Shown here piece after piece: positions 646 through 42,319 of a DNA stretch of 64,000 nt. The translations under genes were made by a program, and so were the position numbers. The notes beneath the pieces were generated by a model. The model saw only the letters and a list, made by a program, of their open reading frames with translations, did not search any database and had not been told where the DNA came from. Position 1 is the first letter of the stretch, and the number at the start of each line of letters is the position of its first letter. This DNA comes from Desulfonatronum lacustre DSM 10312 (lineage in GTDB: Bacteria; Desulfobacterota; Desulfovibrionia; Desulfovibrionales; Desulfonatronaceae). The stretch is taken from positions 695,665-759,664 of the forward strand of contig NZ_KI912608.1 in the NCBI RefSeq assembly GCF_000519265.1, in the 5' to 3' direction.

Positions 646-692
646 TTGAACCAATACAAAGCAGATATGCGAACGATATAGCGAGGTGCTTA

Positions 693-3168: not shown

Positions 3169-3202
3169 TCGCGGCGGACTCGATTTTGATCCCCCGGTTT
3201 TT

Positions 3203-3238
3203 CGAGCCGACTGCACCATGGGGCGTGCGGTCGGCTCG
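3203..3238 (+). terminator. Hairpin after galU
   Basis: CGAGCCGACTGCAC pairs with GTGCGGTCGGCTCG around a short CATGGGGC loop, about 35 bases after the galU stop. Only a weak T-run follows, so it is a probable but not classical intrinsic terminator. Confidence 0.6.
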
Positions 3239-3333
3239 TTGCGTTTCATCCCCCTGTACAACTCGACAACAAGGGAGCCCCGGGCCTTACTGATGGACAA
3301 GCTTTGGACGAATCTTCTTGCGAGACGAGCGGC

Positions 3334-10524: not shown

Positions 10525-10612
10525 CAAAATGCTGATAGACTGGCTTTTCTGCACCCGGATTCTGGTTTTTTGGGATAAATTTATGGAATTTGCAACCTGG
10601 AACAAGTGTCAC

Positions 10613-14381: not shown

Positions 14382-14413
14382 TCTTGCACGGATCGTTTCT
14401 ACACTACACTGAG

Positions 14414-14440
14414 CTTCATGCTCTTCATGCTCTTCATAGC
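14414..14440 (+). repeat. Three tandem 9-base units upstream of a dehydrogenase gene
   Basis: CTTCATGCT occurs twice in tandem followed by a third, variant unit CTTCATAGC. It lies 15-40 bases before the start codon of the next gene, where promoter or leader elements would be expected, so unit-number change could alter expression. Confidence 0.7.
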
Positions 14441-14454
14441 AAAAATTCATCCTA

Positions 14455-15414: not shown

Positions 15415-15415
15415 G

Positions 15416-16201: not shown

Positions 16202-16235
16202 CCCAATATTGCCCGATCCATTAGTTAACGCAATC

Positions 16236-16262
16236 ATATATATATGTGTGTGTGTGTGTGTG
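16236..16262 (+). repeat. (AT)5(TG)9 microsatellite
   Basis: Five AT and nine TG dinucleotide units in tandem, 88 bases before the start of the AT-rich methyltransferase gene. It marks the left boundary of a strongly AT-rich block and could vary promoter spacing. Confidence 0.85.
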
Positions 16263-16349
16263 ATGTTGGGCGTTTTTTAATTTTTGTGTCATTCTGAGAG
16301 AATTCTAGCTCCACAATGCAAACTAAATATTGCCAATAAATAAACTACT

Positions 16350-20400: not shown

Positions 20401-20667
20401 GTGATTGTTGTTGTTCCATTTTCGCAAGTGGAGCATGAGTCTGATTCTTACAATGATTTTTGGAGGTTTGCTCCATCATCTATGAGAAAATTGTTTTCTG
20501 AAAATTCTTTAACTGTTATTTATGAATCGTGGAATAATGATTTTAATTCCGCGACGTATCTTTTTTTTGTAGGATCTCGTTTTCCAGATAACTGGAAAGG
20601 GATGATTAAATCATGTAAGCCTGTGAACCCAGCAGGAAATTGGATTGGTATGATCGAACATGAATAA
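17431..20667 (+). CDS. Large fusion: surface-glycan transferase, beta-propeller-like region, methyltransferase-like C-terminus
   Basis: A 1078-residue protein that appears to have three parts. Residues 1-350 resemble surface-carbohydrate (TagB/KpsC-like GT-B) proteins: ILITGSPRFDLL, MIVIRPHPSENHDAW and LIHNGCTTGVEAYMLNKPVIAY. Residues about 470-850 have repeated motifs such as FGYYDITPFSPDESKLLAVHA, YAVSPDGRWGLSINFSRL and HYTWKNDDSILVYSF, which suggest a TolB/WD-like beta-propeller. The last 150 residues (FDVCFNHTTLEHIFDFRRAFKNI, IVVVPFSQVEHESDSYNDFWRFAP) resemble the C-terminal half of a methyltransferase. It overlaps the next gene by 8 bases. Domain limits are by eye. Confidence 0.7.
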   Translation: MKRDWLYLPIELKVRDLHSRILLACFAAVRGIKSIVGHKLEVQHKIRECPPGFFLMYGFVDSYLNNYEKIIKYGHKVVAQDDEGLVVWQNDMYQKFRVSSSVLEKVSQVYAWGQNQKQLIDNWSPKTKEKILITGSPRFDLLRKPFIQALDVDAQSIRKKIGPYILINTNFGRANHFKGTQYYIQTKREQYVTDNISSKFFEGCLEFQKYIYYSYIEMVFELSSKFPETMIVIRPHPSENHDAWRKHVLGLSNVKVIHDGCVLPWILGSEVLIHNGCTTGVEAYMLNKPVIAYRPVINETYEPVLPNQLSHQTFTKNELIKVVKSYLACSKTLRTPDMDEIANFYIESMGNSFASEKIVDKLCDSQEQITIDEKRESYIYKHLTSNCSEAFNSKSMLINDYIRHKFSGLSINEICDYLHRLKQAYSRFLRITVKQIGETCFLFEYDGKNKTITTADTDSSLIGGKNIFSKDGFIFSDKIHQVFFGYYDITPFSPDESKLLAVHAPIENVTPAPNSQVKVGYYDLSQQVPEFQAVDISSTWCWQMGCRLQWYPAAGGNAILYNRLVNGKYGSVIQDIHSKNILKAYSYPMYAVSPDGRWGLSINFSRLQRLRPGYGYTSLPDGTQNNFAPIRDGIWRIDMKNGRAKFLLSLRRVKDIKPHKSMEGAEHYFNHLLFNPSSTRFLFMHLWVKDGKRYSRLLTADCDGSNIHVVNNEGVSSHYTWKNDDSILVYSFHKENGFNYYLYQDKSSERMIVGKDILKEDGHPTFIPSSNDLITDTYPNINRIQSLIYYHFKSNNYSVIHSSYVPDCFKGEIRCDFHPRLSNLGRFVCIDELIDFRRTMKIIDISRLHVDNKSINDSMINDNSTINSQYCSNRIDRQFRLARIWSNKELLKISSLFSGEIVNISGWKDEDKEGKKYKDYFTNADRYWITNFSGYRGIQNVDNEIFLDLAADLPSDLNKKFDVCFNHTTLEHIFDFRRAFKNICEMSKDIVIVVVPFSQVEHESDSYNDFWRFAPSSMRKLFSENSLTVIYESWNNDFNSATYLFFVGSRFPDNWKGMIKSCKPVNPAGNWIGMIEHE

Positions 20668-26468: not shown

Positions 26469-26528
26469 GACATGATGCTGGAATGAAACAAAATGCTGGG
26501 ATGCTGGGATGAGAAAGGCGGTGGGAAA

Positions 26529-27926
26529 GTGAAAGATGGGAGGCAGGGAGAAATCCGCGTCCCACATGAGAAAGAGGTTGCGGTGGAGTCGCAGCATATT
26601 GAGCGAAAGCAGTCTTTTGGCAAGGAAGTCATTATCTCCCTTGTCGCCTTTGCCAATACCGACGGAGGCACCGTGGTCGTCGGTGTTGACGACCACGGTG
26701 TGCCATGCGGGCTCAATATTGGTCCTGAGAAGATTCAGCGTTACCTCAACGAGATCAAGATCGCCACGTATCCCCAGATCATGCCCAAGGCGTGGGTTGA
26801 AGAAAGAAGCGGCAAGCAGGTGCTCATTTTTCAAATCAACGAGTACCCGGTCAAACCGGTGGCCTACAAGAACCGGTACTACAAGCGGGTGCACAACAGC
26901 AATCACCTGCTGACTCTTGAAGAGATCGTTGATTTGCAACAACAGTCTCTCTCGGTTTCATTCGATGCCTATCCCAGCCTCGCTCAACTGAATGCGTTGA
27001 ATGTTGATCTAATTGCGCGTTTTTTTGAGAGGGTGAACAACAGGGGCAGGGTTGCACTGCGCGACGACATGTCGGCAAACCTTGTCAAGCTGAAGCTCAT
27101 CCGGGGTGGAAATGTTACCCTGGCGGCACAATTCCTTTTCGGTATTCCAGATTGTCATATTCGCCTCGGCCGCTTCAAGTCAGAAGCGACAATTATTGAC
27201 GACAACGTGGTCAGGACACCTCTGATGCTCGCGGTTGAGGAGGCGCTGACATTAATAAAAAGACACATCAACCTTTCGTATCATTTTGACGGCGGCATTG
27301 AGCGAAAAGAGCGTTGGCAATACCCTCTGGAAGCCATCCGGGAGCTGTTACTCAACGCTGTCGTGCATCGGGACTACAAGAATGCTTCTGACGTAGTAGT
27401 CAAGATTTTTGATGACCGAATCCTGTTTTCAAACCCAGGAAGGCTCTATGGTAATTTGCGCGTTTCGGATTTAGAGCGCGATGATTATGTCTCGTCGATA
27501 CGGAATCGACTCCTGGCGGAGGCATTCTATTTGATGGGAGATATTGAGCGCTATGGAACGGGGTTCGTCCGGATCAGAGAATATTTGCGGGATTACCCGG
27601 AACTCAAACTGAAGATTGAAGAAATCGGGAATTTTTTTACAGTCGAATTGCGCCATTCCCCCCCAATCTCCCCCCCAATCTCCCCCCCAATCTCCCCCCC
27701 AATCATCACGGTGACCGAGCTTGAACGGCGCCTGCTCGAACTGTTGCTTAAGAACCCCGCAGCAAGCAGTAGCGATTTAGCCCAAGAGTTGTCTATGACC
27801 CGGGGCACGGTCAAGGAGTATTTGGGGAGATTGAAGAAAAAGAGCGCCCTGGTGCGTGAGGGCTCAACCAGGACAGGGCACTGGGTGTTAACAGATGCAG
27901 GGCAGGGGATTCTTTCAAATGACTAA
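26529..27926 (+). CDS. ATP-binding protein with AlbA_2/Schlafen domain and HTH
   Basis: About 465 residues. The N-terminal AlbA_2 (Schlafen AAA-4-like) domain shows ESQHIERKQSFGKEVIISLVAFANTDGGTVVVGVDDHG. A GHKL/HATPase-like region follows (YPLEAIRELLLNAVVHRDYKNASDVVVKIFDDRILFSNPG), with the N-box ELLLNAVVHRDY and a downstream G-rich GDIERYGTGFVRI. The C-terminus is a winged helix (LLKNPAASSSDLAQELSMTRGTVKEYLGRLKKK). A proline-rich linker is encoded by 12-base repeats. These proteins are putative transcriptional regulators or defence factors. The start is uncertain: GTG 26529 has AAGGCGG upstream, while ATG 26493 lies in a repetitive GATGCTGG tract. Confidence 0.82.
   Translation: MKDGRQGEIRVPHEKEVAVESQHIERKQSFGKEVIISLVAFANTDGGTVVVGVDDHGVPCGLNIGPEKIQRYLNEIKIATYPQIMPKAWVEERSGKQVLIFQINEYPVKPVAYKNRYYKRVHNSNHLLTLEEIVDLQQQSLSVSFDAYPSLAQLNALNVDLIARFFERVNNRGRVALRDDMSANLVKLKLIRGGNVTLAAQFLFGIPDCHIRLGRFKSEATIIDDNVVRTPLMLAVEEALTLIKRHINLSYHFDGGIERKERWQYPLEAIRELLLNAVVHRDYKNASDVVVKIFDDRILFSNPGRLYGNLRVSDLERDDYVSSIRNRLLAEAFYLMGDIERYGTGFVRIREYLRDYPELKLKIEEIGNFFTVELRHSPPISPPISPPISPPIITVTELERRLLELLLKNPAASSSDLAQELSMTRGTVKEYLGRLKKKSALVREGSTRTGHWVLTDAGQGILSND
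27658..27704 (+). repeat. 12-base in-frame tandem repeat with poly-C tracts
   Basis: The unit CCCCCCCAATCT occurs three times plus a partial fourth, encoding Pro-Pro-Ile-Ser units between the ATPase-like and winged-helix domains. Each unit has a run of seven C residues. Whole-unit changes keep the frame, but slippage in a C-run would truncate the protein before its DNA-binding domain. Confidence 0.85.
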
Positions 27927-28000: not shown

Positions 28001-29773
28001 ATGAATCAGATTCTTCAAGCGCTGAGTCAAGTATTGCCACAGGGTGCCCGCCTTTTCTCCGGCCAAGAGGCGGGACGCGGTGATCCATCCATATTCAGGG
28101 CGTTTTCTGCGCAGGTTATTCGGAAAAACGAGGTCCTCATCAAGCAGGGGGAGAATCAAAAAGCACAGGAAATGGCAGTCGCGCTTCTGGCCGCATATCC
28201 TTTGGAAAAGACAGCCGGGCTGCATCTTATGCAGGTATTGGGGCGGTGCGGGAATATTCTGGAGGGATATAGACTGGGCAAGCTGTATGCCACGCTTTTC
28301 CCAGAAGACCAGGACTTCTTCAGGCTAATGGCGGAGTATCTGCGCATACTTGCCATGCATTGCGACGACGATGCCCAGGCTATGGGCCTGCTGGACGGAG
28401 CGGCTTTGCTTGATCCGGCTTTGCCTCGTGTCTGGAGTGACCTTGCGAACCGTCTTCAACTCCTTGACCAGCGAGATGCACTTGAACGTACACGACAATG
28501 GGCGGCGAGCTTCAAGCCGCAAATTTCTTGTATGAATTCGGTTGGTTCTCTGAATAGCACTCACGGTAAACGTATTCGGGTCTGGTATGTATCCCACTCC
28601 TTCGGCTTTGAGGCTGGTGGAATAAACGGCGTATCCCAGGCCAAGTCCATGACATTGAGTTCGATTATCCGGGGGGGAGATGGACCAGAGGTCTCCGTCA
28701 TCACCCCTTTGCGTCCTGAACTTCCGGAAGCCATGGGGGAATTCGCTCAGACATTGCCGCGCATAACAAAGGGGGATGGCTTCTCGTGGCCTTTGTGGCA
28801 GGGCACCACGACCCTGCCACAGGGGGGTATACGTTTTTGCCGCCCGGAGGATGGCGGCAAGCCTGACCTCGTCATTGTTGAAGGTCTGCGGCTCACCGCG
28901 CACCACTATCTTGAACGGCTGGGCTTCCCGGACAACTGTCCCAAAGTGTTCATTCATCACTCATCTCCGGATCATTTCACTGACAAATATAGGGGTGAAC
29001 AGGAGTTGCCGGCCACCTTGGAAGCCCTTGCCAAGTATGATGGTTTTGTCTGCGTTTCAAGCAATGTCATTGAAGAATGGAAGCGTTTTGAGACATTGGC
29101 CGCCAAGCCGTGGGTGCATATCCCCAATTGCGCACGCGAGGAGGAGGCAGCAGACTTACTGAAAATCGATCCCGGTAGATTACGCGAAAAATTGGGCTTG
29201 CCGCAAGATGGCTTTATAGGTTTATGCCTTGCCAGCGTACAGTGGCGCAAGGGACAGGACATATTACTACAACAGTTACGTGAGGTCACTCACAAACGCC
29301 CAGATGCGCTTTTTATATTTGTCGGGCCGATCTTCACGGAATGGGGGGGGCAACAAATTATGGAACTGGGAAATAAATTTTTACAAAAACATGTTCGCTT
29401 TCTCGGCGTACAGCTCAACGCCCTGGAATATATTCATGCCTCCGACTGCCTGGTTTTACCGTCGCGAGAAGAGGCCTTGCCTTTGACTATTCTTGAAGCC
29501 ATGTGTCTGGGGAAAACAAGCGTGGCTTCCGATGTCAACGGGATCCCGGAATTGATTGAGGACAAGGTCACGGGCTTGTTGTTTTCACACGACAATCCAA
29601 GGCAACTGGCCAAACATCTTCTGACATTGATTGACAATCCCGTGCAGGCTCAACACTTGGGAAAGCAAGCTCTCAATCGATACCACACCTTGTTTTCTCG
29701 CAAGCAGCACGCCATGCGCTGGAGGGAATCCATTGAAATGCTTGTTGCCCAAAACAAAGAGAAAAATCCATGA
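28001..29773 (+). CDS. GT4 glycosyltransferase with N-terminal helical repeats
   Basis: A 590-residue protein. The first 180 residues are alpha-helical and TPR-like (AQEMAVALLAAYPLEKTAGLHLMQVLGR, AMGLLDGAALLDPALPRVW). From about 190 a GT-B fold follows: IRVWYVSHSFGFEAGGINGVSQAKSMTL, VFIHHSSPDHFTDKYRG, IGLCLASVQWRKGQDILLQQL and SDCLVLPSREEALPLTILEAMCLGKTSVASDVNGIPELI, the family 4 donor-binding E-x7-E region. ATG 28001 with GGTGAGGA upstream is the best start. It overlaps the next gene by 4 bases. Confidence 0.85.
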   Translation: MNQILQALSQVLPQGARLFSGQEAGRGDPSIFRAFSAQVIRKNEVLIKQGENQKAQEMAVALLAAYPLEKTAGLHLMQVLGRCGNILEGYRLGKLYATLFPEDQDFFRLMAEYLRILAMHCDDDAQAMGLLDGAALLDPALPRVWSDLANRLQLLDQRDALERTRQWAASFKPQISCMNSVGSLNSTHGKRIRVWYVSHSFGFEAGGINGVSQAKSMTLSSIIRGGDGPEVSVITPLRPELPEAMGEFAQTLPRITKGDGFSWPLWQGTTTLPQGGIRFCRPEDGGKPDLVIVEGLRLTAHHYLERLGFPDNCPKVFIHHSSPDHFTDKYRGEQELPATLEALAKYDGFVCVSSNVIEEWKRFETLAAKPWVHIPNCAREEEAADLLKIDPGRLREKLGLPQDGFIGLCLASVQWRKGQDILLQQLREVTHKRPDALFIFVGPIFTEWGGQQIMELGNKFLQKHVRFLGVQLNALEYIHASDCLVLPSREEALPLTILEAMCLGKTSVASDVNGIPELIEDKVTGLLFSHDNPRQLAKHLLTLIDNPVQAQHLGKQALNRYHTLFSRKQHAMRWRESIEMLVAQNKEKNP

Positions 29774-31407
29774 ACGAAGATTTTCAGTATGTCTCTCCTG
29801 GCATTGTCCCGGAACTGAACGCGTTGACCCTTGATGAGGTGTGTCAGCATTTGGCGACGCATCTGAATAGTTTCATTTTGGATGATAGCCTGGGAGCTGC
29901 GTATTTCAACCGCTTTGTCCATGACGAAACGTTAGCTTCGAATACGCGGGCATTGAATTGTTTTTTTTATATTCTTCGCAAAATGGGGCAGATCGACCCG
30001 TTTAATCCGACCATCATCAATATGACGCAGCAAACAGCGCCTTCGCCAGAAAAGAAGATTAAGTTAAAATTATTGATGAATACGACTTTGACCCAGGAAA
30101 AGATCGCTCAGGTCCAGAAGTTTTTACAGGGTGAAAAGAGTGTGAATGGCCGAGGAGAACTTGTAAGGTGCCTGCGGCATAACTGTAGTGATGTGGCATT
30201 GGCAAATTACTTGCTGGATTTCGATCTCTCCTCTGGACATAACCCCCAAGAGTGGATGAAAACGTTTCATCCTCCTGATATATTTAAAAAAGAATGGGAA
30301 TGTCGGAAAATCTATCTTTATGCTCGATCAGGAAACACAATCAAAGCGCTGAAGCATTGGGAGCGTGTTGCCGACAACGAGAACGAAGTCCCCGAAACCA
30401 TCCTCAATTACGCGGCTGCTTGCCTCATCAGGAATAACGCGAAAGACGCCGCTGCAAGTCTGCTCAAGCAATCATTGAGGCTTGACGCTTCGCAGCCTCC
30501 TGTCAACTATTTGAGCGAGGAGCTTCAATCTCCATTTTGCGTGGATAAACACGTTGTCCAGACAAAGGATATCATTATTGGAGTTTATACGCACAACAAA
30601 GCTGACCTGTTGCAGCAAACCCTCCAGAGCCTGCGACAGTCATGCCTTGGAAAAGCGCGTTGCTTTCTTTTGCTCAACGGCTGCAGTGACGAGAGTTTTT
30701 CCGTGGCCCGGGCAGCGAAGGAAGACTTTCCGGACGGTCAGCTTTCTGTATTTCAGATGCCGATCAATATCGGCGCTCCGGCTGCGCGGAATTTTCTGGT
30801 TCATGAGGCATTGAAGACGGAATGCGATTATATGGCATTTCTGGACGACGATGTCGTGATACCTGAAAACTGGCTGCAAAGCCTGGCCACGGCCATTCAG
30901 GAAGAACCAGGGATCGGGGCGGTGGGATGCAAGATCATGAACCCTCAACCGGCCTCGACAATGCAGTACCTTTTCCGGGATGTTTCGATCGTCAAGAAGG
31001 GCATCTTCAGGTTGAGCCTGGCAACGCCTTTTTGGACTATTGATCCAGGCTTTTACGGGATTCGCAGGGATGTCGACTCAGTCATGGGGTGTTGCCACTT
31101 GATCAAAAGGGAGTGCCTGGAGCAGGTGCCCGAGTTTGACATCCAGTTTTCCCCCAGCCAATTGGATGACGTGGCGTTCCATTTGGATCTGCGCCTGAAA
31201 GGGTATCGAGTCCGTTACCTCGGGCAACTGGAATGCACCCATTATCGTTCAACCGGTTTCCAGTCTCCAAAAACAAGCAATCATGGGAGTTCTCTGGGAA
31301 ACGACGTGAAATTCTATTATCGCTTCAAAGGAATGTTTCAGCGGATGCGTGATTGGCAACGCAAGCGTAATGAAGGTATTATACCGACTTTAGATTCGTT
31401 GTGTTAG
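29770..31407 (+). CDS. GT2 glycosyltransferase with N-terminal helical domain (GAPAARN family, copy 1)
   Basis: A 545-residue protein. Residues 1-260 are helical and repeat-like. The GT2 domain starts IIIGVYTHNKADLLQQTLQSLRQ, has the metal-binding FLDDDV, preceded by INIGAPAARNFL, and a C-terminal signature VMGCCHLIKRECLEQ followed by FSPSQLDDVAFHLDL. The GAPAARN, GCCHL and FSPSQxDD motifs are shared with the genes at 34667 and 39025, so these are paralogues. It overlaps the upstream GT4 start by 4 bases. Its last 29 bases overlap the convergent radical SAM gene. Confidence 0.85.
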   Translation: MNEDFQYVSPGIVPELNALTLDEVCQHLATHLNSFILDDSLGAAYFNRFVHDETLASNTRALNCFFYILRKMGQIDPFNPTIINMTQQTAPSPEKKIKLKLLMNTTLTQEKIAQVQKFLQGEKSVNGRGELVRCLRHNCSDVALANYLLDFDLSSGHNPQEWMKTFHPPDIFKKEWECRKIYLYARSGNTIKALKHWERVADNENEVPETILNYAAACLIRNNAKDAAASLLKQSLRLDASQPPVNYLSEELQSPFCVDKHVVQTKDIIIGVYTHNKADLLQQTLQSLRQSCLGKARCFLLLNGCSDESFSVARAAKEDFPDGQLSVFQMPINIGAPAARNFLVHEALKTECDYMAFLDDDVVIPENWLQSLATAIQEEPGIGAVGCKIMNPQPASTMQYLFRDVSIVKKGIFRLSLATPFWTIDPGFYGIRRDVDSVMGCCHLIKRECLEQVPEFDIQFSPSQLDDVAFHLDLRLKGYRVRYLGQLECTHYRSTGFQSPKTSNHGSSLGNDVKFYYRFKGMFQRMRDWQRKRNEGIIPTLDSLC

Positions 31408-32437
31408 TTCGAAGTAATACCTTGAGGTTTCTCAAAGCTGGTAAATACTCTTGATCTTGAGATAATGCCTGTCGAAATAATAAATTCGCATCTTGGTATT
31501 CTCCCTTTTGAAATTTGATTAATCCTGCAAGATTACTGTATTCTTTGCTTATATCATAATTATTTTCAATATATCTGAGCCGATTTTCACTTTCAAGCAC
31601 ATCTCCTCTATTAAGCATTATGGCTGCGGCATGGATATGGTATTGTTGCTCAAGACTTTCGTTGAAAGGCTTCCTACCTGGCTCCACTTTCCATGGCCCT
31701 GATCGCAATTTTTGAGAAAAATTGCAATAGCTACAAGCGTCAAGAGGATATCTTTTGCGCCAGAACCAGAAACTGTCCCTGTTAAACTGTTTTAAGTCAT
31801 AGATCATGTCTTTGCTTGCCAGAAATGCATCTGGGATCATTCCTTTGGGTGCAAATCGGGTATAAGCGCCAGCTCCGCAACGCCCCATGCGCATATCTGA
31901 AAGCAGAGCCGTGCACTCAACATTACCGCAATACAGTTGGGGTTGTTCAGGACTATTCCAAAATTCCAGCTTGTTGAAGACTGCTTTGTCACAAAAGTCG
32001 ATACAGATGTTTGGATTGATTTCTCGAATTTTATTCAACAGCTTTGATACTACCTGTTCTCCTCCGAGTCGTCGCATGATCGTCGGGTAGCGGGATACTC
32101 GCAGCGTGTTGATAACTAACCATAAATCTTTGTAAAGACGAATATCTTCAAGGCTGAGCCAAAAACCATTGGTCGTCAGCATCAATGGTTTGCGATATCG
32201 CTCCAATAAAGCATAAGCAAAGCCGGTCAAGTCTTGATGTAGAAAAGGCTCTCCGCCCATAATAGAAAGAGAATGATAGTGGATGTCGTTTTTTTTGAGC
32301 ACATCGAGGCCGTCAAAATATTCCTTTGCTTCATATTCTCTTGAGGCGGCAAAAGGAGAATAATTATGGCACCATCGACAGTTATGATTGCAATGATCCA
32401 CGGCATGTACTTCCAGCCAGCCGAATGCGTTAGCCAT
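31379..32437 (-). CDS. Radical SAM protein with C-terminal TPR
   Basis: A 352-residue radical SAM protein. The [4Fe-4S] cluster motif C16-x3-C20-x2-C23 (CNHNCRWC) is followed by the glycine-rich SIMGGEPFLHQDL and LMLTTNGFWL. Further cysteine pairs (LYCGNVEC, GRCGAGAY, CSYCNFSQ) suggest SPASM-like auxiliary clusters. The C-terminus has a TPR-like SNLAGLIKFQKGEYQDANLLFRQAL. ATG 32437 is chosen for the CAGGAGCT upstream; the 50-residue extension further upstream lacks support. It lies 52 bases after the nucleotidyltransferase gene on the same strand, suggesting an operon. The substrate is unknown; modification of a glycan or alcohol-phosphate is a reasonable inference. Confidence 0.85.
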   Translation of the reverse strand: MANAFGWLEVHAVDHCNHNCRWCHNYSPFAASREYEAKEYFDGLDVLKKNDIHYHSLSIMGGEPFLHQDLTGFAYALLERYRKPLMLTTNGFWLSLEDIRLYKDLWLVINTLRVSRYPTIMRRLGGEQVVSKLLNKIREINPNICIDFCDKAVFNKLEFWNSPEQPQLYCGNVECTALLSDMRMGRCGAGAYTRFAPKGMIPDAFLASKDMIYDLKQFNRDSFWFWRKRYPLDACSYCNFSQKLRSGPWKVEPGRKPFNESLEQQYHIHAAAIMLNRGDVLESENRLRYIENNYDISKEYSNLAGLIKFQKGEYQDANLLFRQALSQDQEYLPALRNLKVLLRTNTTNLKSV

Positions 32438-32489
32438 GAATAGCTCCTGACTTCGGTATGTTGTTTGTATAGGGGGAGACTCTCTTGCT

Positions 32490-33164
32490 TCAACTTCTGG
32501 CAAACATTTCCTGAGCCTGGGTCCAATCTTCCGGAAAATCAACCTCGATACATCTGTGCTCGCTAATATCCAATGGAATGAATTCAACCCCGCCGCGAAT
32601 CATGAATTCCAAGCCGCGTTCAAAATAATCCTGGTCCTCGCAACGCTTCAGATTTTTCACCAAACAGGGCAGATATCCGGCCAAAATTTTGTTGATCCCC
32701 ACGGCTTCGCCTTCCCCGTTTTCGATATTTTTTGAAATAGCAATAATTTTCCCTGACTCGTCCGTGCGGTACTTGACCTCCTCGGCTTCGCACTTCTTGC
32801 GGTCCACGGCGATCACATTGTTTTCGGCCGCGACCACCGTGCGAAGCACTTCGGTATCAAAGACCACATCACCGTTGGCCCAAATCACGTCGTCCTCCAA
32901 GTCTTCGACCGCGTGCAACAGGCTTTGGGAGGTGTTGGTGATGTAGAAGAGCGGGTTGTAGCGGAAGAACACGTTCGGGTGCTGCTCCATGACCAGGGTC
33001 TTTTTGAAGCCGACGACAACGATGATCTCGCGGATGCCGACCTCTCGGAAGATTCTGATTTGTCTGCCCAGGATTGTCTCGCCAGTGGGGAGGATGGCCA
33101 GGGACTTGGGGAGAGGGCGGCCCAGGCGGCTGCCGACGCCAGCGGCTAGAATGACGGCTTTCAT
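32490..33164 (-). CDS. Sugar/alcohol-phosphate nucleotidyltransferase (LicC-like)
   Basis: A 224-residue nucleotidyltransferase fold protein. It starts MKAVILAAGVGSRLGRPLPKSL, the G-x-G-x-R-L-x(4)-PK signature, followed by ILGRQIRIFREVGIREIIVVVGF, VIWANGDVVFD (metal-binding D) and a later GEAVGINKI. This resembles the phosphocholine cytidylyltransferase-like LicC/HddC group. Placed between a TagB-like transferase and a radical SAM gene, it may make a CDP- or NDP-activated alcohol or sugar for transfer. Exact substrate is unresolved. Confidence 0.85.
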   Translation of the reverse strand: MKAVILAAGVGSRLGRPLPKSLAILPTGETILGRQIRIFREVGIREIIVVVGFKKTLVMEQHPNVFFRYNPLFYITNTSQSLLHAVEDLEDDVIWANGDVVFDTEVLRTVVAAENNVIAVDRKKCEAEEVKYRTDESGKIIAISKNIENGEGEAVGINKILAGYLPCLVKNLKRCEDQDYFERGLEFMIRGGVEFIPLDISEHRCIEVDFPEDWTQAQEMFARS

Positions 33165-33180
33165 GGTGCTCCTTTATGTT

Positions 33181-33348
33181 CTCTCGCCAAGATCGCCAAG
33201 AATCGCAAAGGGGGATTTTACTGCTTTACAGGCAAATGTCTTGGCATTTTTGATTCATATCTTTGCGCAATTTGCGGGCTTGAGCGAGTCTTCGAGCGGG
33301 CGAGAGGAATTTTTTTCTCTCGCGAAGATCGCCAAGGTTCGCTAAGGG
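33181..33348. repeat. Two copies of a 32-base intergenic repeat
   Basis: CTCTCGCCAAGATCGCCAAG... (33181-33212) and CTCTCGCGAAGATCGCCAAG... (33317-33348) share about 27 of 32 bases, both ending AAGGG. They lie 104 bases apart in the gap between two minus-strand genes. The sequence is of the widespread 'TCTCGC-AAG-CGCCAAG' intergenic repeat type. No other feature is seen in the gap. Confidence 0.75.
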
Positions 33349-34533
33349 TCACGTATTCACAAATCGTTCCACGAGGTATTTTCCAAGGCGTGCGGCGGCT
33401 TTGCCGTCGTGGTTGGTGAAGGATTTGGCGGCCAGGGCTTCGCGTTTGGCTTGGTGCGGGTCTTCGTCGCGGGCCAGGAGCGCTTCGAGGTAGGTAAAAA
33501 GTTCATCCTGGGTCACGGCATGGAAGCCTGGCGTCATTTCCTGGTAGTTGAAGAGCAGGGACCGACTGGAGGTCACATAGCGTTCCAGGTCATAGGGATA
33601 GAACAGGATTGGCCGGTTGGTCAGGAGAAAATCGAAGTACACGGAAGAATAGTCCGTGAGCAGCAGATCCGTGATGCGCAGCAGCGGGTAGACGTCCGAA
33701 GTGGATTCGGCCATGTGGACCGTGGCCGGGAGTCGTCCTTGCAATCGTGCCGCGACATACGGATGCAGTTTGCAGATGAAAAGAATCTTGTGGCGCTGGT
33801 TGAATGCATGCAGACGGGCAAAGTCGATCATTCCCTCTTCCAGCGGCCCCCCGCCGGCATCACGAAACGTGGGCATGAATAGGATGGTTTTGCCCCCCTG
33901 CTTTCTGGTTTGCATCATCCGGGCGTACAGTGTCGCATCCACGTTAAGCATGTCCATCCCCTGGGGAGGGCGCGAGAGCACGTCGTTGCGCGGGTAGCCG
34001 AGCTCGGGGAAGGCATCTGCCTTGAAGGCGCGGGCAAAGGCGTGTTCCGAGAAAAAGGGTGACGTTGAGAGAACGCTGTCGTAGCCGGAGTACATCTCGG
34101 TCAGGTACCTTGCTTTTTCCGGAGTCATGTTCACCGGGGAGTCGATTTCCGGGAATCCAATGGCTTTGAGGGGAATTCCGTGCCAGAGTTGGACGACCTT
34201 GGCCGGACTGACCAACATGGTGAGTAGCTGATCATGTCGCCACCAGAAGTCGTCGCAAACCACGATCCTGGCTTGCAGGAGATGATCGACGGCTTCTTGG
34301 GCGCTCAGGTGAACAGCCGGAAGATTGGCCCGGCGTAACGCGAGGCAGGTGTTGCGATGAGCGCCGATAAAAACGCAACGCAGTTCCGGAACATGTGTAG
34401 CGCAATGCAGAAAGGCGTACTTCACGTTGTCGATGAATTGGCCATCCTTGCGGCCGAGAAAGACGACATGATTCATCCGTCTGGGGGTTGTCGCCACCAA
34501 ACGAGCGATGGAACGTAGCGATTGTCCATCCAT
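33349..34533 (-). CDS. CDP-glycerol:poly(glycerophosphate) glycerophosphotransferase family protein (TagB/TagF-like)
   Basis: A 394-residue GT-B-like protein. Motifs of the Glyphos_transf family are clear: VVQLWHGIPLKAIGFPEID (the L-W-H-G motif), DSVLSTSPFFSEHAFARAF, LGYPRNDVLSR, TILFMPTFRDAGGG, ILFICKLHPYV, and TDLLLTDYSSVYFDFLLTNRPILFYPYDLERY with the catalytic DYSS. These enzymes transfer glycerol-phosphate or related units from CDP-alcohols, cytoplasmic side of the membrane. AAAAGGATT precedes the ATG at 34533. With the LicC-like enzyme and radical SAM protein downstream it forms a likely phospho-alcohol decoration set. Confidence 0.88.
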   Translation of the reverse strand: MDGQSLRSIARLVATTPRRMNHVVFLGRKDGQFIDNVKYAFLHCATHVPELRCVFIGAHRNTCLALRRANLPAVHLSAQEAVDHLLQARIVVCDDFWWRHDQLLTMLVSPAKVVQLWHGIPLKAIGFPEIDSPVNMTPEKARYLTEMYSGYDSVLSTSPFFSEHAFARAFKADAFPELGYPRNDVLSRPPQGMDMLNVDATLYARMMQTRKQGGKTILFMPTFRDAGGGPLEEGMIDFARLHAFNQRHKILFICKLHPYVAARLQGRLPATVHMAESTSDVYPLLRITDLLLTDYSSVYFDFLLTNRPILFYPYDLERYVTSSRSLLFNYQEMTPGFHAVTQDELFTYLEALLARDEDPHQAKREALAAKSFTNHDGKAAARLGKYLVERFVNT

Positions 34534-34666: not shown

Positions 34667-36310
34667 TCAGCTTCCTTTCCCAAACACCTCGTCTTGCCAA
34701 AAAGCCTGATCCACCCCACGTGATTCCCGGTCAATAACCGCCAGTTCACGTTCCGTGAACTTGTGCTCCATCTTGATATGATTGCCCAGGACATGGGCGT
34801 CCCAGGCCGCGTCTTTGGGGGCGCGGCGCTGGTCGTGGGATGTACTGACCACCGCCACCCGGCCATCGTACACGGCCTGCCCCCCGGCCTTCCATATCTG
34901 GATGTTGTGCTCCAAATCGTCCACTTGCGAGGGGGAAAAGCGGATGTCGAAGCTGGGTACCCCCAGTCGGTTCCATTTTTTCAAGTCAAAAAGATGACAA
35001 CAGCCCATCACCGACAGGCATGGCCGGCGATAGTCGAACTGGCCCAGATCCATGAACAGGGGGGCGTTGTTGGTGCAGCGGATGGTTTTGTCGCCGGTTT
35101 CCTGGAAATAGCGGTACACGTATTGAATTGTCCGGATATCGCCGGGGTTGACGCCTTTGGGGCCAACGACAACGGCTTTGAGAAAAAGCTGGAAATCCTG
35201 GAGGTAGCAGGCCAGCCAGTCCCGGGGCAGGAGGACGTCGTCGTCCAGATAGGCCAGATAATCGGCTTCCTGGGTTTCCGGGAGGGTGAACAGCCAGTTG
35301 CGGGCCGCCGGGGCGCCGATGTTCACGGGCAGGTGGATGATGGTTACGGGTCGGCCTTGGGCCAGGGTCTGGACCGCGCTGTCCAGTTCTTCCGAGGTGA
35401 AGGCCGTGGAGCCGTTGTTGAGCAGGGTGATTTGGCTCGGGCCGATATTTGAGGCCAGCAGGCTTTCCAGGGTGCGCAGGGTGGTTGCCAGCTTGTTGAA
35501 GGTGTAGAAGCCGATGTGGACCTTGGACTTTTCCACCAGAGCCGGATCTGCTTTCGGCTGGTCCAGCTCCCAGAGTCGGTAGCGCAGGTGCGGCTGGTGC
35601 GGTTCCCAGGCCAGGGAGCGCAGCCAGAACATTCGGGCCGTGTCCGTGCGGCCTTCGTGCAGGGCCAATTCGGCCTTGAGGTTCAGGCTGAGAAAACTCT
35701 CCGGCCCCTGGTTCAGCAATTCGAGGGTCAGGGTCTCATCGCCGGACTTCCAGGTCGCCCAGGCCAGCAGCGGGGCCGTGGCCGGGCCATACGGACCTTG
35801 GGTGAACCGTTCAGCCCACCTCACGAAACGCTCCTTTTCCCCCCATTGCCAGAACTTTGATAGCCCCAGAAAGTGGACCAGGGAGGCGGGCGAGGTTGTC
35901 AGGATCTGCTCCAGGTGCTCCGGATCGTCACCGCATTGCTCAATGAGCGGATGAGCCTGCTCCATGGTTAATCCCGAGGCGTCTTGGGGCAAGGCTTCGA
36001 ACCAGGCGTGAAAATCCGGAGACGATCCGGTCATGGGCAAGAGCTGGCCCAACAGCCCGCGGACATTGGGGTCGCAAGGGTTCATCACCAGGGCCTGGCG
36101 CAACAATCCGGTGGCCAGATCGATGCGGGCTGCGGATTGGGAATCCTGGGACGGGGCGAGGCCCTCCAGCAGTTTTTGCGCGGCCCAGACGGCATGGCCG
36201 GGGTCAAAATAGCCCTGGAAGCGGTGCAACCAGGAGATGTGGTCGAGGATGGTCGGTTGTTGATGCATGGCGTTTCTCTGGTGAGGGCTGGGATGCAGTG
36301 CATGGTTCAT
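34667..36310 (-). CDS. GT2 glycosyltransferase with N-terminal helical domain (GAPAARN family, copy 2)
   Basis: A 547-residue protein. An N-terminal helical region of about 260 residues (repeat-like, with AARIDLATGLLRQALVMNPCDPNVRGLLGQLL) precedes a GT2 domain starting VHIGFYTFNKLATTLRTLESLLAS. The catalytic core has LPVNIGAPAARNWL, LAYLDDDVLLPRDWLA and VMGCCHLFDLKKW with FDIRFSPSQVDDLEHNIQ. Same motif set as the genes at 29770 and 39025. AAGGAATTGTCTT precedes the ATG at 36310. Probably a sugar transferase in O-antigen or flagellar glycan synthesis. Confidence 0.86.
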   Translation of the reverse strand: MNHALHPSPHQRNAMHQQPTILDHISWLHRFQGYFDPGHAVWAAQKLLEGLAPSQDSQSAARIDLATGLLRQALVMNPCDPNVRGLLGQLLPMTGSSPDFHAWFEALPQDASGLTMEQAHPLIEQCGDDPEHLEQILTTSPASLVHFLGLSKFWQWGEKERFVRWAERFTQGPYGPATAPLLAWATWKSGDETLTLELLNQGPESFLSLNLKAELALHEGRTDTARMFWLRSLAWEPHQPHLRYRLWELDQPKADPALVEKSKVHIGFYTFNKLATTLRTLESLLASNIGPSQITLLNNGSTAFTSEELDSAVQTLAQGRPVTIIHLPVNIGAPAARNWLFTLPETQEADYLAYLDDDVLLPRDWLACYLQDFQLFLKAVVVGPKGVNPGDIRTIQYVYRYFQETGDKTIRCTNNAPLFMDLGQFDYRRPCLSVMGCCHLFDLKKWNRLGVPSFDIRFSPSQVDDLEHNIQIWKAGGQAVYDGRVAVVSTSHDQRRAPKDAAWDAHVLGNHIKMEHKFTERELAVIDRESRGVDQAFWQDEVFGKGS

Positions 36311-39024: not shown

Positions 39025-40728
39025 TCACATCCATTCTTGCAGGTCGCCGTGTTCGGCCATGGTTCGGACCTTGGCCAGCAGGTCTTCCTGGGTCGCGGCG
39101 CGGTCCAGGGCCGCGATTTGCTCCACTTGCTCCGGAGCGTACTTATGGTGCAGCTTGTACTCGTTGGCCATGGCGCTGCCATATTGCTGTGTGTTGTTCA
39201 GGGTCGCCCGGCCGGTGCGTTTCAGGTGTCCGATTTCGAGGTGGCCGGAATAGACCGCCGGACGGCCGTTCAGGCCCAGCCGCAGGTCGTGATCCAGGTC
39301 GTCGAATTGCGATGGCGAGAAGCGCAGGTCAAAGTCGCCGCATTCCAGCAGCACGTCCCGGGCAAAGAGGTGGCAGCAGCCGGTTACCGAGGAGCAGGGC
39401 CGCAAGTAGCTGAACTGACCCTGATCAAGAACCTGATGATGCAGGTTGGACAGCCTGAAGGAGGTCCAACCTTCCGAGGCGTCCGGACGGTCCGTGGGCT
39501 TCAATTCGCGCACGTGCAGATCCGCGCTTTGGATGGAGGTCGGGTTGTGAAAGTCCACCACCTTGCAGCCCCAGACTCCGGCTTCGGGGTAGGCCTCGCA
39601 AGCCGCTCCCAGCCGTTCCAGCCAGTCTTCCGGCAGGCTGACGTCGTCGTCCAGATAGACCAGCCAGTCCGCCTCGCGGCATTCCGGCAGATGCATCAGC
39701 CAGTTGCGGGCCGCCGGAGCGCCCACGTTTACGGGCAAGGAGATTACCTGAAAGCGCTCCGGGCCGAGCCGGTCCTGCCAACCTCGGAGCAGGTCCGGCG
39801 TCTGATCCGTACTGGCGTTGTCCAGAACCGCCACCCTGGCACCGTGCAGCTTCGTGGCCTGGAGGCTGTCCAGGGTCACGGCCAGTTCCTCGGCCTTGTT
39901 GAAGGAATAGAGCAGGATCATGGTTCTGCCCGGTAGGATTGTCCGTTGTTGATCCACGCCAAGCAAGGCGTCGTGCATCTTCAAAATCAGGCCGGTCTGC
40001 CACGGGCGCTGACGCAGGGTTTGCCGCCAGTGATGGAAGGCCTGATCCCGGTTGCCCTCTGTATAGGCCAAGTCGCCCAGCAAGCGCTGCCCGCAGGCCG
40101 AGGACATGGCGATTTCCTGTGCCGTGTCCAGCATTCGGTCTGAAACCGGGAGCCCTTGCAATATCCGTAGCTCGGCCCGGATGCGTTGGCCCAGCAAAGG
40201 CATGGCCGCAGGCCAAAGACGGTTCATGCAGTCCTCGATCCATGCCCATTCCTGCTCGTACGGCCCCACCATGAGCGCCTGCTGCCACCAGTAGAGATTT
40301 TCTTGATCCTTGCCGAGCATTTGTTCCAGAAAACGGCACATCTTTTGCGTTTCCCGGCGCTGGACCAGGTGTGCATAGTAGGTGTTCTGTTTCGGTGGTT
40401 GCCACTTTTGGGCCACATAGCGGAATATGTCGATCAAATGTTCGGGGAGGCCGGGAATTTTTTGCTGCAGCATCAACAACTGCCCGGCAAGTTGCCCGTC
40501 CAGCGGATCCTCCTCCCATGCCGCAAGCAGCATGTCCAAACCGAGGGAAACGCAAAACGAGGCCTGGGCCGGAGACGCTCCGGAAACCGCCTGATTCAGG
40601 GCCTGTTCGGCCATGGTGACCAGATGCAGCTTGCCCACGCTGCCCAGCAGAAGATTGTCCTGGAGTGGTTCGGGCAGCCTATTCCAGAACGCGGGGGGCG
40701 CGGTACGCCCTGTTGAAGCCTGGGGCAT
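39025..40728 (-). CDS. GT2 glycosyltransferase with N-terminal helical domain (GAPAARN family, copy 3)
   Basis: A 567-residue protein. A helical, repeat-like N-terminal half (LLGDLAYTEGNRDQAFHHWRQTLRQRPW) is followed by a GT2 domain starting MILLYSFNKAEELAVTLDSLQA. Catalytic core: LPVNVGAPAARNWL, VYLDDDVSLPEDWLE, VTGCCHLFARDVL and FDLRFSPSQFDDLDHDLRLG. I chose the ATG at 40728 because it follows ACGGAGAGTG and the longer upstream frame is low-complexity shadow of the next gene. It is 4 bases from the upstream zinc-ribbon gene. Confidence 0.86.
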   Translation of the reverse strand: MPQASTGRTAPPAFWNRLPEPLQDNLLLGSVGKLHLVTMAEQALNQAVSGASPAQASFCVSLGLDMLLAAWEEDPLDGQLAGQLLMLQQKIPGLPEHLIDIFRYVAQKWQPPKQNTYYAHLVQRRETQKMCRFLEQMLGKDQENLYWWQQALMVGPYEQEWAWIEDCMNRLWPAAMPLLGQRIRAELRILQGLPVSDRMLDTAQEIAMSSACGQRLLGDLAYTEGNRDQAFHHWRQTLRQRPWQTGLILKMHDALLGVDQQRTILPGRTMILLYSFNKAEELAVTLDSLQATKLHGARVAVLDNASTDQTPDLLRGWQDRLGPERFQVISLPVNVGAPAARNWLMHLPECREADWLVYLDDDVSLPEDWLERLGAACEAYPEAGVWGCKVVDFHNPTSIQSADLHVRELKPTDRPDASEGWTSFRLSNLHHQVLDQGQFSYLRPCSSVTGCCHLFARDVLLECGDFDLRFSPSQFDDLDHDLRLGLNGRPAVYSGHLEIGHLKRTGRATLNNTQQYGSAMANEYKLHHKYAPEQVEQIAALDRAATQEDLLAKVRTMAEHGDLQEWM

Positions 40729-40732
40729 TGGT

Positions 40733-41326
40733 TCACTCTCCGTTGGGCTGGGGCAAGGAGGCGGGGTGGGTGTTTTGTTCCCGTTGCCGGTCCGCCTCCT
40801 CGCGCTGTTGCAGAAAAGCCTGGATTGCTTCCAGAGGGGTGGCGCTTTGCTCCAGGATGTCGCGATTGTGGAGGAAAATGAGGCTTCGGAAACTGCTTTC
40901 TTCCGGATGATGCTGGTCAAATCCTTTTGTGAACCATTCGTGTGTATCCCGCAGGAAGCGTTCCACCTCATGACGCCGCGCTCGTTCCCGGATGCGCTTG
41001 GCGTACTGGTCATGGTACCACAGTAAAAGTCGCTCAAAAGAGAATGATCGCAGATGCCTTTCCGCCTCGGCCAAATCGTGGGCAATATCCGTCAGTATGC
41101 CCCGATACACGACGAAATAAACGGACTGTTGGTTGAGAGTCCGGCAAGCGTTGCAGTACAGCCCCTCGCGCACGATGCGTAGTTCTTCGGCATGCCCGAT
41201 GCAATCGCCGATGCGGAAATCCCCCAGGATATTTTCAAAGGCCTTGGTCTGGGTGGAGGTGATCCGGGCTTGGCAGGCCGTGCAGGTCAGCGGCTGGGGG
41301 AAGTGGACGGTGTCATAAATGCCCAT
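40733..41326 (-). CDS. Zinc-ribbon-like protein of unknown function
   Basis: A 197-residue protein with two CxxC pairs (C15-C18 and C58-C61) and an intervening cysteine (C42), suggesting a zinc ribbon. The rest is helical and rich in basic and acidic residues, with HHPEESSFRSLIFLHNRDIL in the second half. CAGGAGAA precedes the ATG. No enzyme motif was recognised. Its position, with 4 bases to the following GT2 gene, implies a role in the same glycan pathway, perhaps scaffolding or regulation. Confidence 0.75.
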   Translation of the reverse strand: MGIYDTVHFPQPLTCTACQARITSTQTKAFENILGDFRIGDCIGHAEELRIVREGLYCNACRTLNQQSVYFVVYRGILTDIAHDLAEAERHLRSFSFERLLLWYHDQYAKRIRERARRHEVERFLRDTHEWFTKGFDQHHPEESSFRSLIFLHNRDILEQSATPLEAIQAFLQQREEADRQREQNTHPASLPQPNGE

Positions 41327-41423: not shown

Positions 41424-41876
41424 TTATGGTCGCGGAGACTCGAGAACCGACGAAAGCCAGCAACGCAGGGCCTCAAGCACCATCTCCAGGTCTTCCAAGT
41501 GGTTGGCGCAGATGTCCTGGATTTCAACGTTCGATACCTCGTGGTAAAAATGGACCATCCGGTTGCGATAGCCTGCTAATGTCCGGAATTGGTCCGCCAG
41601 ATCATTGGAAATGACGCCGTGCTTGGCCAATGCTGGCCCGATCTCTTTGTACTCTTCCACTGCGATAGCGAACTGTTTGGTCAGGATGTGTCTGCCCAGA
41701 TCCAGAAGGGCTTTCAGGGCTCTACGCAAGCACGACTCGCAGGCCAGTGCATTGCGCGGGTCCGTGTGGAACTGCATTGGATCGTGAATCGGCATGTTCC
41801 GAATACTCTGGAGCATACTTTGGACCCACTGGATACGATCGGTAACGACGCGACGGGAAAGATGCCCACTGGTCAT
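41424..41876 (-). CDS. HepT-like HEPN toxin (DUF86)
   Basis: A 150-residue HEPN-domain protein. The RNase motif R104-x4-H109-x-Y111 (RNRMVHFY) matches the RX4HXY motif of HepT toxins. Helical N-terminus with LRRALKALLDLGRHIL and LADQFRTLAGYRN is typical of DUF86. HepT degrades RNA, and its tyrosine is nucleotidylated by MntA to inactivate it. The gene overlaps the MntA-like gene by 4 bases, antitoxin first. It sits inside the glycan gene run without an obvious link to it, likely as an inserted addiction module. Confidence 0.88.
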   Translation of the reverse strand: MTSGHLSRRVVTDRIQWVQSMLQSIRNMPIHDPMQFHTDPRNALACESCLRRALKALLDLGRHILTKQFAIAVEEYKEIGPALAKHGVISNDLADQFRTLAGYRNRMVHFYHEVSNVEIQDICANHLEDLEMVLEALRCWLSSVLESPRP

Positions 41877-42319
41877 GCTTGGCCTCCGAGAATGAGGTTG
41901 ACTCGTTCTCTGTGCAGGGGAAGCAGGTCGCCGGCCCGGCGCAGAATGTAGAGGTCGTACTCGTCCGCCTGGTCCTCGTCCGTAGTAAACAACCGTTCAC
42001 CCTGGACAATGTTGGAGGCCAGAAAAGGCGGTGCTTGCGGCAGAATGACCAAGTCCACGCGATGGACTCCGAAAAGGTCTTCCAGGTCAATGGTCAGGTT
42101 CACGACGCGCCGTATCGGCAGCCGGATTCCCGACTCAGGCAGGGCTCCCAGGTCAAGATCCGACGTGGACGCGGCCATGTCCTGGATGTTGTTTTCCAAC
42201 CAGTCAGCGGCCTCCTTGGCTCTGCTTCCGAAGGCATATAATGCGGAGATGCTATGCTCTCGACACAAGACCGCAAGCTTGGCTGTGCGCGGAGGGGATA
42301 TGCGTTCATGACAGTTCAT
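41873..42319 (-). CDS. MntA-like nucleotidyltransferase antitoxin
   Basis: A 148-residue minimal nucleotidyltransferase. Active-site motif: G31-S32 ... D54-L55-D56 (GSRAKEA... SDLDLG), with a third acidic strand FGVHRVDLVILPQA. The spacing between GS and DxD is 21 residues, longer than the 10 typical of MntA (GSX10DXD), so this is a variant. A C-terminal segment DLYILRRAGDLLPLHRERV is typical. It should adenylylate the HepT partner. It overlaps hepT by 4 bases. Confidence 0.86.
   Translation of the reverse strand: MNCHERISPPRTAKLAVLCREHSISALYAFGSRAKEAADWLENNIQDMAASTSDLDLGALPESGIRLPIRRVVNLTIDLEDLFGVHRVDLVILPQAPPFLASNIVQGERLFTTDEDQADEYDLYILRRAGDLLPLHRERVNLILGGQA

Follow-up and report, generated by a model that had tools for sequence, protein, structure and literature searches.

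A conserved pair of nucleotidyltransferase and PF04464 transferase genes in a glycan-synthesis island of Desulfonatronum lacustre, and the radical SAM gene beside it

Do three neighboring genes of Desulfonatronum lacustre DSM 10312, encoding a transferase of Pfam family PF04464, a nucleotidyltransferase (NTase) and a radical S-adenosylmethionine (radical SAM) protein, form one pathway for decorating a glycan? This question was raised by a stretch of 64,000 nucleotides (contig NZ_KI912608.1, positions 695,665 to 759,664; hereafter the window) of the 3.76 Mb, one-contig genome, for which an original prediction had joined activation of a phosphorylated alcohol or sugar, its transfer to a glycan and a radical step into one function. 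The three same-strand open reading frames (ORFs) were found on the minus strand at 31379-34533, as predicted, each with its own Pfam match (Radical_SAM 5.5e-14, NTP_transf_3 1.7e-17 and Glyphos_transf 7.8e-63), and transcription runs from the transferase (34533-33349) through the NTase (33164-32490) to the radical SAM gene. Genome comparison demonstrated that the conserved unit is the pair of NTase and PF04464 transferase, not the trio: the pairing goes far beyond chance and occurs in at least six phyla. The predicted joint function was thus partly supported: the evidence favors an activating NTase beside a TagB/TagF-like phosphotransferase, and gives no support to the radical SAM gene as a part of it. 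The genes and their characteristic residues are as follows.

33349..34533, minus strand: PF04464 phosphotransferase (TagB/TagF/TarL-like), 394 amino acids (aa); Pfam 7.8e-63, with TarL (8va1) at 4.6e-35 and TagF (3l7i) at 4.1e-33 by profile.
34165..34188, minus strand: LWHGIPLK motif of the transferase, H118 invariant in 14 sequences (coordinates from residue numbers).
33628..33657, minus strand: TDYSSVYFDF motif of the transferase; T293, D294, Y295, S296, S297 and D301 invariant in 14 sequences (coordinates from residue numbers).
32490..33164, minus strand: NTase of the LicC/PntC/IMPCT group, 224 aa, predicted to use cytidine triphosphate (CTP); Pfam NTP_transf_3, PDB profile search, AlphaFold model and Foldseek.
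33105..33140, minus strand: nucleotide-binding loop of the NTase, G9-x-GSRL...P19-K20, invariant in 18 sequences (coordinates from residue numbers).
32868..32876, minus strand: N97-G98-D99 of the NTase, N97 at the position of PntC Glu104 and LicC Asp105 (alignment and excerpts of PMC6697681).
32538..32549, minus strand: C-terminal I206-E207-V208-D209 of the NTase, a likely metal ligand by comparison with PntC and LicC.
31379..32437, minus strand: radical SAM protein, SpeY-like, with twitch-type cysteines and a C-terminal tetratricopeptide repeat (TPR), 352 aa; probably outside the module.
32369..32392, minus strand: CX3CX2C motif of the radical SAM protein (C16, C20, C23), invariant in 5/5 sequences, own included.
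31724..31930, minus strand: stretch with twitch-type cysteines C170, C187, C235 and C238, invariant in 5/5 sequences, own included; a putative cluster site.
31388..31657, minus strand: C-terminal TPR helices of the radical SAM protein, approximately residues 261-350, from sequence profile and model.

The pairing was counted in 120 related genomes, the own genome included, in which the NTase (58-65% identity) was found in 16 genomes besides D. lacustre and at 17 loci, one genome carrying two; the weak matches in G104 (36%) and G009 (30%) were excluded from these counts. A same-strand PF04464-like ORF was located within 400 bp of the NTase at 17/17 related loci, compared with 1.6 expected for a random other gene there. 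At nine of them a transferase 49-52% identical to that of the window lies directly upstream of the NTase, with 19-75 bp between the matches, and at the remaining loci diverged PF04464 proteins, some fused to a family 2 glycosyltransferase (GT2), adjoin the NTase. With the Pfam PF04464 model, matches were obtained in all 17 NTase genomes (own included), 33 in total, of which 29 were found by hand count within approximately 3.5 kb of an NTase and four on other contigs (two in G006, and one each in G001 and G021). The sole PF04464 match adjoins the NTase in 10/17 genomes, and the transferase of the window is the only match to this model in its own genome. At locus L060, PF04464 in the 1209-aa protein upstream escaped the Pfam scan at 1e-3; the genome-wide search with the same model matched it at 2.8e-6.

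A distant set was composed of the best 80 of at least 454 NTase relatives, with one genome per species. An adjacent same-strand PF04464-like ORF was found at 47/80 of these loci, and, with two duplicates dropped, 45/78 loci were paired, compared with 5.7 expected for a random gene there. Four diverged distant cases (L112, L104, L087 and L074) all passed the Pfam PF04464 cut-off, L074 lying on the opposite strand and outside the 47. By record title, the pair-bearing loci belong to Thermodesulfobacteriota (Desulfonatronum), Bacillota, Bacteroidota, Actinomycetota, Planctomycetota and Neomarinimicrobiota, some of these records being metagenome bins and possibly misnamed. Because gene calls in loci rich in guanine plus cytosine (GC) were crude, adjacency was measured between stop-to-stop ORFs, which overrun the true starts and make the gaps look smaller; matches found by the C1 cluster profile alone were dropped from the adjacency counts, as this profile drifted into GT2 domains on iteration. 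The 60 other same-strand neighbors of the NTase, which came from 53 loci (42/95 loci had no usable neighbor), included 12 ABC-2 permeases, 10 GT2, 3 LicD and 1 Radical_SAM proteins, and no third gene common to the NTase-transferase loci was found. As a side observation, CMP-sugar-synthetase-, PseG- and methyltransferase-like genes follow the pair in four g28 genomes (L047, L051, L053 and L054, among which Pfam covered L053 only); three of them have SDR and split transketolase genes there as well. Such a set might encode a nonulosonic acid pathway of an unusual kind.

The transferase matched PF04464 over the whole domain (213.1 bits versus a gathering cut-off of 22.1; residues 12-387). It was aligned with both TarL and TagF, the TagF alignment spanning profile positions 15-381 of 383, and the WHG, GYPRND, PTxRD and TDYSS blocks of TagF were kept, from some of which TarL deviates. 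This bears out the TagB/TagF type that the LWHGIPLK and TDYSSVYFDF motifs had suggested.

The NTase had been predicted to be of the LicC type, which was upheld at the level of fold and group. In profile searches against solved structures PntC (4.5e-14) and LicC (1.3e-10) were matched, as well as inositol-phosphate cytidylyltransferases, and the nearest structures found by Foldseek to its AlphaFold model (mean predicted local distance difference test, pLDDT, 91.8) were PntC, IPCT, LicC and IMPCT, all CTP enzymes, at approximately 17-22% identity. Across 18 sequences G9-x-GSRL, P19-K20, N97-G98-D99 and I206-E207-x-D209 are invariant, and both the fold and the nucleotide-binding residues are those of the LicC/PntC/IMPCT cytidylyltransferases. 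Judged from its sequence and fold, the NTase thus very probably belongs to the CTP-using LicC/PntC/inositol-phosphate group. In PntC, Glu104 and Glu196 lie near the amine of aminoethylphosphonate, and LicC has Asp at both positions (excerpts of PMC6697681). HMMER placed Asn97 of the NTase at PntC Glu104 and its invariant Glu186 at PntC Glu196. The LicC Asp105 position, read from the PntC alignment since the paper equates Asp105 with Glu104 and HMMER's LicC alignment is shifted by one there, holds no acidic residue, Asn97 being invariant in all 18 sequences. The loss of one acidic contact of two speaks mildly against a choline- or aminoethylphosphonate-like amine.

Further, relatives of the transferase were found with other activators. 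In four genomes without such an NTase (G036, G085, G114 and G093), a transferase 37-40% identical to that of the window is directly preceded by an IspD-SDR fusion (454-478 aa), and this by an MptE-like (PF01973) gene. The one fusion searched was nearest to ribitol-5-phosphate cytidylyltransferase; fusions of this type are known as cytidine diphosphate (CDP)-ribitol synthases (Bcs1/Acs1 kind). More distant PF04464 genes lie near a TagD-like gene in G109 and G090; the TagD-like gene passes its family cut-off only in G090. In the transferase tree, the four IspD-SDR-paired proteins group in one clade (97/94), and the ten NTase-paired proteins of the order in a separate one (92/99, not among the strongest branches); NTase-paired transferases of other phyla lie outside these, with long branches and uncertain placement. 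Within the order, a change of activator has thus gone with a change in the transferase, which would be expected were the donor set by the activator. As observations in their own right, the gene order MptE-like (PF01973), IspD-SDR fusion and PF04464, kept in four genomes (L150-L153), is a candidate CDP-ribitol version of the module; successive IspD-like, PF04464, NTase and LicD genes occur in L071 (a Neomarinimicrobiota bin), and an IspD-like gene adjoins the NTase in L092 (Glycomyces).

The pair was also found on plasmids, for which a search with the NTase gave eight records. On pDCAR1 of Solidesulfovibrio carbinolicus, its two genes overlap by 4 bp and are flanked by parA on one side and a CopG/RelE-type pair on the other. 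Neither immediate neighbor is a glycan gene, and genes for cobalamin-dependent, radical SAM and MptE-like proteins follow within approximately 8 kb (the gene table being incomplete). The arrangement on S. magneticus pDMC1 (L158) is the same, except that the NTase is annotated as 207 bp and lies beside a Tn3 family transposase. The pair is therefore probably a self-contained mobile unit, which suggests that the phosphorylated substrate is an ordinary metabolite. A Segatella homologue from this search (about 30% identity) has PEP (phosphoenolpyruvate) mutase as neighbor. RefSeq names the annotated plasmid proteins CDP-glycerol glycerophosphotransferase and phosphocholine cytidylyltransferase family protein; the latter name is probably wrong for the NTase homologues, and the substrate names in both annotations are unproven here.

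Based on the observed gene pairing, folds and activator swapping, from which catalysis itself is predicted, we consider that the NTase and the PF04464 transferase probably form a two-step decoration module. By fold and family, the NTase would join CTP and a small phosphorylated alcohol, X-P, to give CDP-X and pyrophosphate; by family and partner swapping, the PF04464 enzyme would then move X-P from CDP-X to a sugar hydroxyl with release of cytidine monophosphate (CMP). The acceptor would be a surface or flagellar glycan built by the surrounding glycosyltransferases, and X would most likely come from general metabolism, since no third gene is common to the loci and the plasmid pair has no glycan genes directly beside it. 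A flagellin link by gene position was sought and not found: Flagellin_N matches of the own genome lie at 0.61, 0.95, 1.54 and 2.16 Mb, none inside the window (0.696-0.760 Mb), and in the other 16 NTase genomes no such match came closer than 100 kb to the NTase where both share a contig. If the module acts in this way, the donor of a transferase may be predictable from its adjacent activator gene. Phospho-linked groups modify how a bacterial surface is charged and recognised, and a cassette of two genes would lend itself readily to assay and use.

Several observations weigh against this two-step module. The gap between NTase and transferase is 184 bp in the window versus 19-75 bp in the nine closest pairs. 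Among the 80 distant loci, 14 lack a PF04464-like gene in the stretch retrieved, and in 19 more it is present only away from the NTase or on the opposite strand. LicD, a different kind of phosphotransferase, accounts for 3/60 of the other NTase neighbors, L112 carries two CDP-alcohol phosphotransferase genes besides, and an NTase homologue (30%) on a Sulfitobacter plasmid adjoins a CDP-alcohol phosphotransferase gene, not PF04464. PF04464 enzymes have the GT-B fold, so that a sugar donor would also be possible for the transferase. Finally, a glycerol phosphate as X is weakly founded, as the NTase residues do not single it out.

Within the two-step module, we tentatively take X to be a glycerol phosphate as a first guess, with phosphoglycerate or a phospho-amino-alcohol or amino acid next; its first place reflects its universal occurrence and the finding that no other activator acting on it passed the cut-off here, the TagD-type glycerol-3-phosphate cytidylyltransferase being above cut-off in 0/17 NTase genomes and 1/120 overall, with many weak matches to related families. 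It is possible, if doubtful, that the NTase family activates with CDP a headgroup so far undescribed (not choline, phosphonate, ribitol or TagD-type CDP-glycerol), so that a mobile pair would have placed one and the same phospho-group on surface glycans across at least six phyla, and activator exchange would change the specificity of the transferase. An amino acid or amino alcohol such as phosphothreonine or phosphoserine, as proposed for CD0242 of Clostridioides difficile and PA1090 of Pseudomonas aeruginosa, is an unlikely X: the logic of the enzyme pair is alike, the phosphotransferase domain of PA1091 is joined to a glycosyltransferase like the PF04464-GT2 fusions of relatives, and the invariant Glu186 aligns with PntC Glu196, a contact of the amine, but ThrH/HSK-PSP (TIGR02137, a model assumed to cover CD0241) was above cut-off in 0/17 NTase genomes, with weak matches in 12, no methyltransferase was seen common to the loci, and the second acidic contact is Asn97 in the NTase, CD0242 and PA1090 having been compared by description.

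The remaining readings of the pair fare worse. Were the NTase a true LicC, X would be phosphocholine, in keeping with the RefSeq name of the plasmid homologues and with LicC among the nearest structures; this is very unlikely, as Choline_kinase (PF01633) had no match in the own genome and was above cut-off in only 2/17 NTase genomes, Asn97 takes the place of LicC Asp105, and PntC and IPCT match the NTase equally well or better. PntC itself is the best structural and profile match, the NTase of G033 lies approximately 5-9 kb from PEP mutase, phosphonopyruvate decarboxylase and PsrA-like genes, and the weak NTase match of G009 (30%, outside the counts) is 2 kb from a PEP mutase, all of which would suit a phosphonate as X. 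PntC Glu104 is not kept, however, and PEP mutase (TIGR02320) was above cut-off in 1/17 NTase genomes with no match in the own genome, for which a phosphonate was therefore rejected; overall we regard it as highly improbable. An NGD motif is a usual feature of sugar-1-phosphate NTases, the NTase model also matched structures of the GlmU and RmlA types, and Epimerase_2 was matched, below its cut-off, by some of the weaker PF04464 proteins in relatives. These features would fit an NTase making a nucleoside diphosphate (NDP)-sugar for an ordinary GT-B glycosyltransferase, a reading to which we give little credence since the structures nearest to the NTase belong to CTP enzymes acting on non-sugar or inositol phosphates and, in kin, ribitol- and glycerol-type activators fill the NTase slot.

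The third gene was originally listed as an ORF at 31379-32587, beginning within the NTase gene, and this overlap is due to 5′ extension of the ORF: an ATG at 32437, preceded by a Shine-Dalgarno-like AGGAG, lies approximately 50 bp past the NTase stop. Its 3′-end overlaps the end of a convergent GT2 gene (29770-31407) by 29 bp. The predicted C-terminal TPR was supported by sequence profile and model. The predicted SPASM-like cysteines were found as invariant auxiliary cysteines, probably of another type. CX3CX2C (C16, C20, C23) and C170, C187, C235 and C238 are invariant in five sequences; in a check for the two-cluster set of SPASM, C175 was kept in 4/5 and the four auxiliary cysteines were invariant. 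The protein thus has CX3CX2C and the cysteines for one predicted auxiliary cluster, as in the twitch enzymes SpeY and BtrN, and its cysteines fit the smaller one-cluster twitch domain, probably rather than SPASM. The best solved relative was SpeY, a radical SAM dehydrogenase of the twitch type like BtrN, top by sequence (phmmer 5.1e-10) and by Foldseek. With the weak AlphaFold model (pLDDT 68), VIA ranked SpeY third after two helical-repeat chains (Z 13.9, 205 residues), in a list of mostly TPR chains plus SpeY from which the absence of other radical SAM families is uninformative. BtrN has a four-cysteine auxiliary cluster (excerpts of PMC9012708), for which the four invariant cysteines would be enough. 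As a SpeY-like enzyme the protein may oxidise or epimerise a sugar-type substrate; it could plausibly act on a sugar or a cyclitol.

Could this enzyme modify X or the decorated sugar, so that activation, transfer and a radical step make one dedicated pathway? The three genes share a strand, with the close spacing and Shine-Dalgarno-like site described, and other radical SAM proteins lie near PF04464 or NTase genes in G109, G033 and pDCAR1 (approximately 3.6 kb off). SpeY acts on an antibiotic intermediate related to the substrate of BtrN. The latter, near in fold, oxidises an aminocyclitol (excerpts of PMC9012708). The co-occurrence elsewhere on which the original prediction had staked the trio was, however, absent: the radical SAM profile matched 0/97 NTase loci (17 related and 80 distant, with two duplicates), and relatives (40-47% identity) occurred in 3/119 other related genomes, 0/3 with the NTase. 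By that prediction's own test, the link is probably chance or lineage-specific adjacency. In a phylum sample, 2/345 genomes (own included) passed the threshold of 1e-40, the other match spanning two stop codons, and the one Radical_SAM protein among the 60 other NTase neighbors had only a weak 55-residue match to that of the window; those of G033 and G109 are not close relatives of it. Four fetched regions with relatives shared no glycan neighborhood, as judged from the first residues of their ORFs: in L062 the gene follows an ATP-synthase-like operon and in L063 it lies near an enolase-like gene. A weaker relative (27%), on a Planctomyces plasmid, is located a few kb from glycosyltransferases. 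The GC content of the radical SAM gene is 41.6%, versus 53.5-62.4% for the NTase, the transferase and the genes behind them (0.535 and 0.570 for the pair); the convergent GT2 (48.2%) and NeuB (47.8%) genes are low too, so composition alone is modest evidence. Taken together, a dedicated trio appears improbable, and the radical SAM gene is probably separate and separately acquired, a neighbor by chance or by lineage-specific adjacency.

Apart from this, the L060 region (G033) holds phosphonate genes (PEP mutase, phosphonopyruvate decarboxylase and PsrA-like) at 438-4757, upstream of its NTase, and at 10531-16365, just downstream, the gene for a single 1944-aa protein combining GT2, GT1, TPR and a C-terminal radical SAM domain. 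In the window, the three genes are set in a glycan-synthesis island, surrounded by GT2 and GT4 genes and approximately 18 kb from NeuB-, epimerase- and PseF-like nonulosonic acid genes. The GT2 proteins at 29770-31407, 34667-36310 and 39025-41085 have in common a P(I/V)N(I/V)GAPAARN(F/W) motif and are probably paralogues. At 41424-42319 (minus strand), a HepT-like HEPN ribonuclease gene adjoins a Polbeta/MNT nucleotidyltransferase gene, a HEPN-MNT toxin-antitoxin-like pair within the island; a Schlafen/AlbA_2 plus RecG-C-like regulator gene at 26493-27926 (plus strand) is flanked by two glycosyltransferase genes. Also on the plus strand are a gene for a 1078-aa protein (17431-20667) matching TIGR04396 "surface carbohydrate biosynthesis" at 4.9e-111, with a weaker BFO_1060 transferase match, and a 261-aa ORF (15416-16201) after a 2-hydroxyacid dehydrogenase, with no match in Pfam or NCBIfam.

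How does the locus compare with known systems? The radical SAM protein resembles SpeY and BtrN in sequence or fold match and in the four-cysteine auxiliary site, and its C-terminal TPR sets it apart from them. The original statement that no characterised pathway has this trio may hold; for the pair, the logic has been published for C. difficile and P. aeruginosa (excerpts of PMC10714395 and PMC11833859). Among the matches listed, literature on the flagellin and surface glycans of Desulfovibrio yielded nothing of use, and for an NTase-PF04464 pairing the C. difficile work was the sole parallel recognised among those listed. The transferase shares its family with the teichoic-type systems (TagD/TagF, TarI(J)/TarL and IspD-SDR), where CDP-polyol activation is followed by a PF04464 transferase, whereas the activator in the window comes from the LicC/PntC group, not from TagD or IspD. 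LicC/LicD phosphocholine and PntC phosphonate tailoring (excerpts of PMC6697681) are alike in NTase fold and nucleotide-binding residues; the window differs in having Asn97 for Glu104/Asp105, PF04464 and not LicD as neighbor at most loci, and a genome with no choline kinase or PEP mutase match. CpgD of Caulobacter, a CDP-glycerate synthase with an inositol-phosphate cytidylyltransferase as its best structural match, demonstrates that phosphoglycerate is usable by this NTase group, but it serves sphingolipid synthesis and the excerpts of its report mention no PF04464 pairing (PMC12275187).

In the type A flagellin glycan of C. difficile (CD0240-CD0244; excerpts of PMC10714395 and PMC4441256), the nucleotidyltransferase CD0242 and the glycerophosphotransferase-like CD0244 are both required for linking a group to a sugar through phosphate, as proposed here: cd0242 and cd0244 insertion mutants lose phospho-N-methylthreonine from flagellin N-acetylglucosamine, with polar effects reported for cd0242, and CDP-threonine as donor is a hypothesis of the authors (PMC10714395). 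In contrast, the NTase genomes have no match above cut-off to a ThrH-like phosphotransferase (CD0241, with PA1089 in P. aeruginosa), no common methyltransferase was seen, and the window holds no flagellin gene. In the b-type system of P. aeruginosa PAO1 (PA1088-PA1091), PA1090 and the GT2-phosphotransferase PA1091 are the counterparts of CD0242 and CD0244 (excerpts of PMC11833859), and the fusion of the phosphotransferase domain to GT2 in PA1091 is like the PF04464-GT2 fusions of relatives, whereas the transferase of the window is unfused and the accessory genes are missing or not recognised. Since accessory genes were not found and the enzymes were compared by description, the pair is not called a member of either system. 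By analogy it follows the same proposed logic as these flagellin systems, and it is a widely conserved module, a variant of CDP-alcohol activation and PF04464 transfer.

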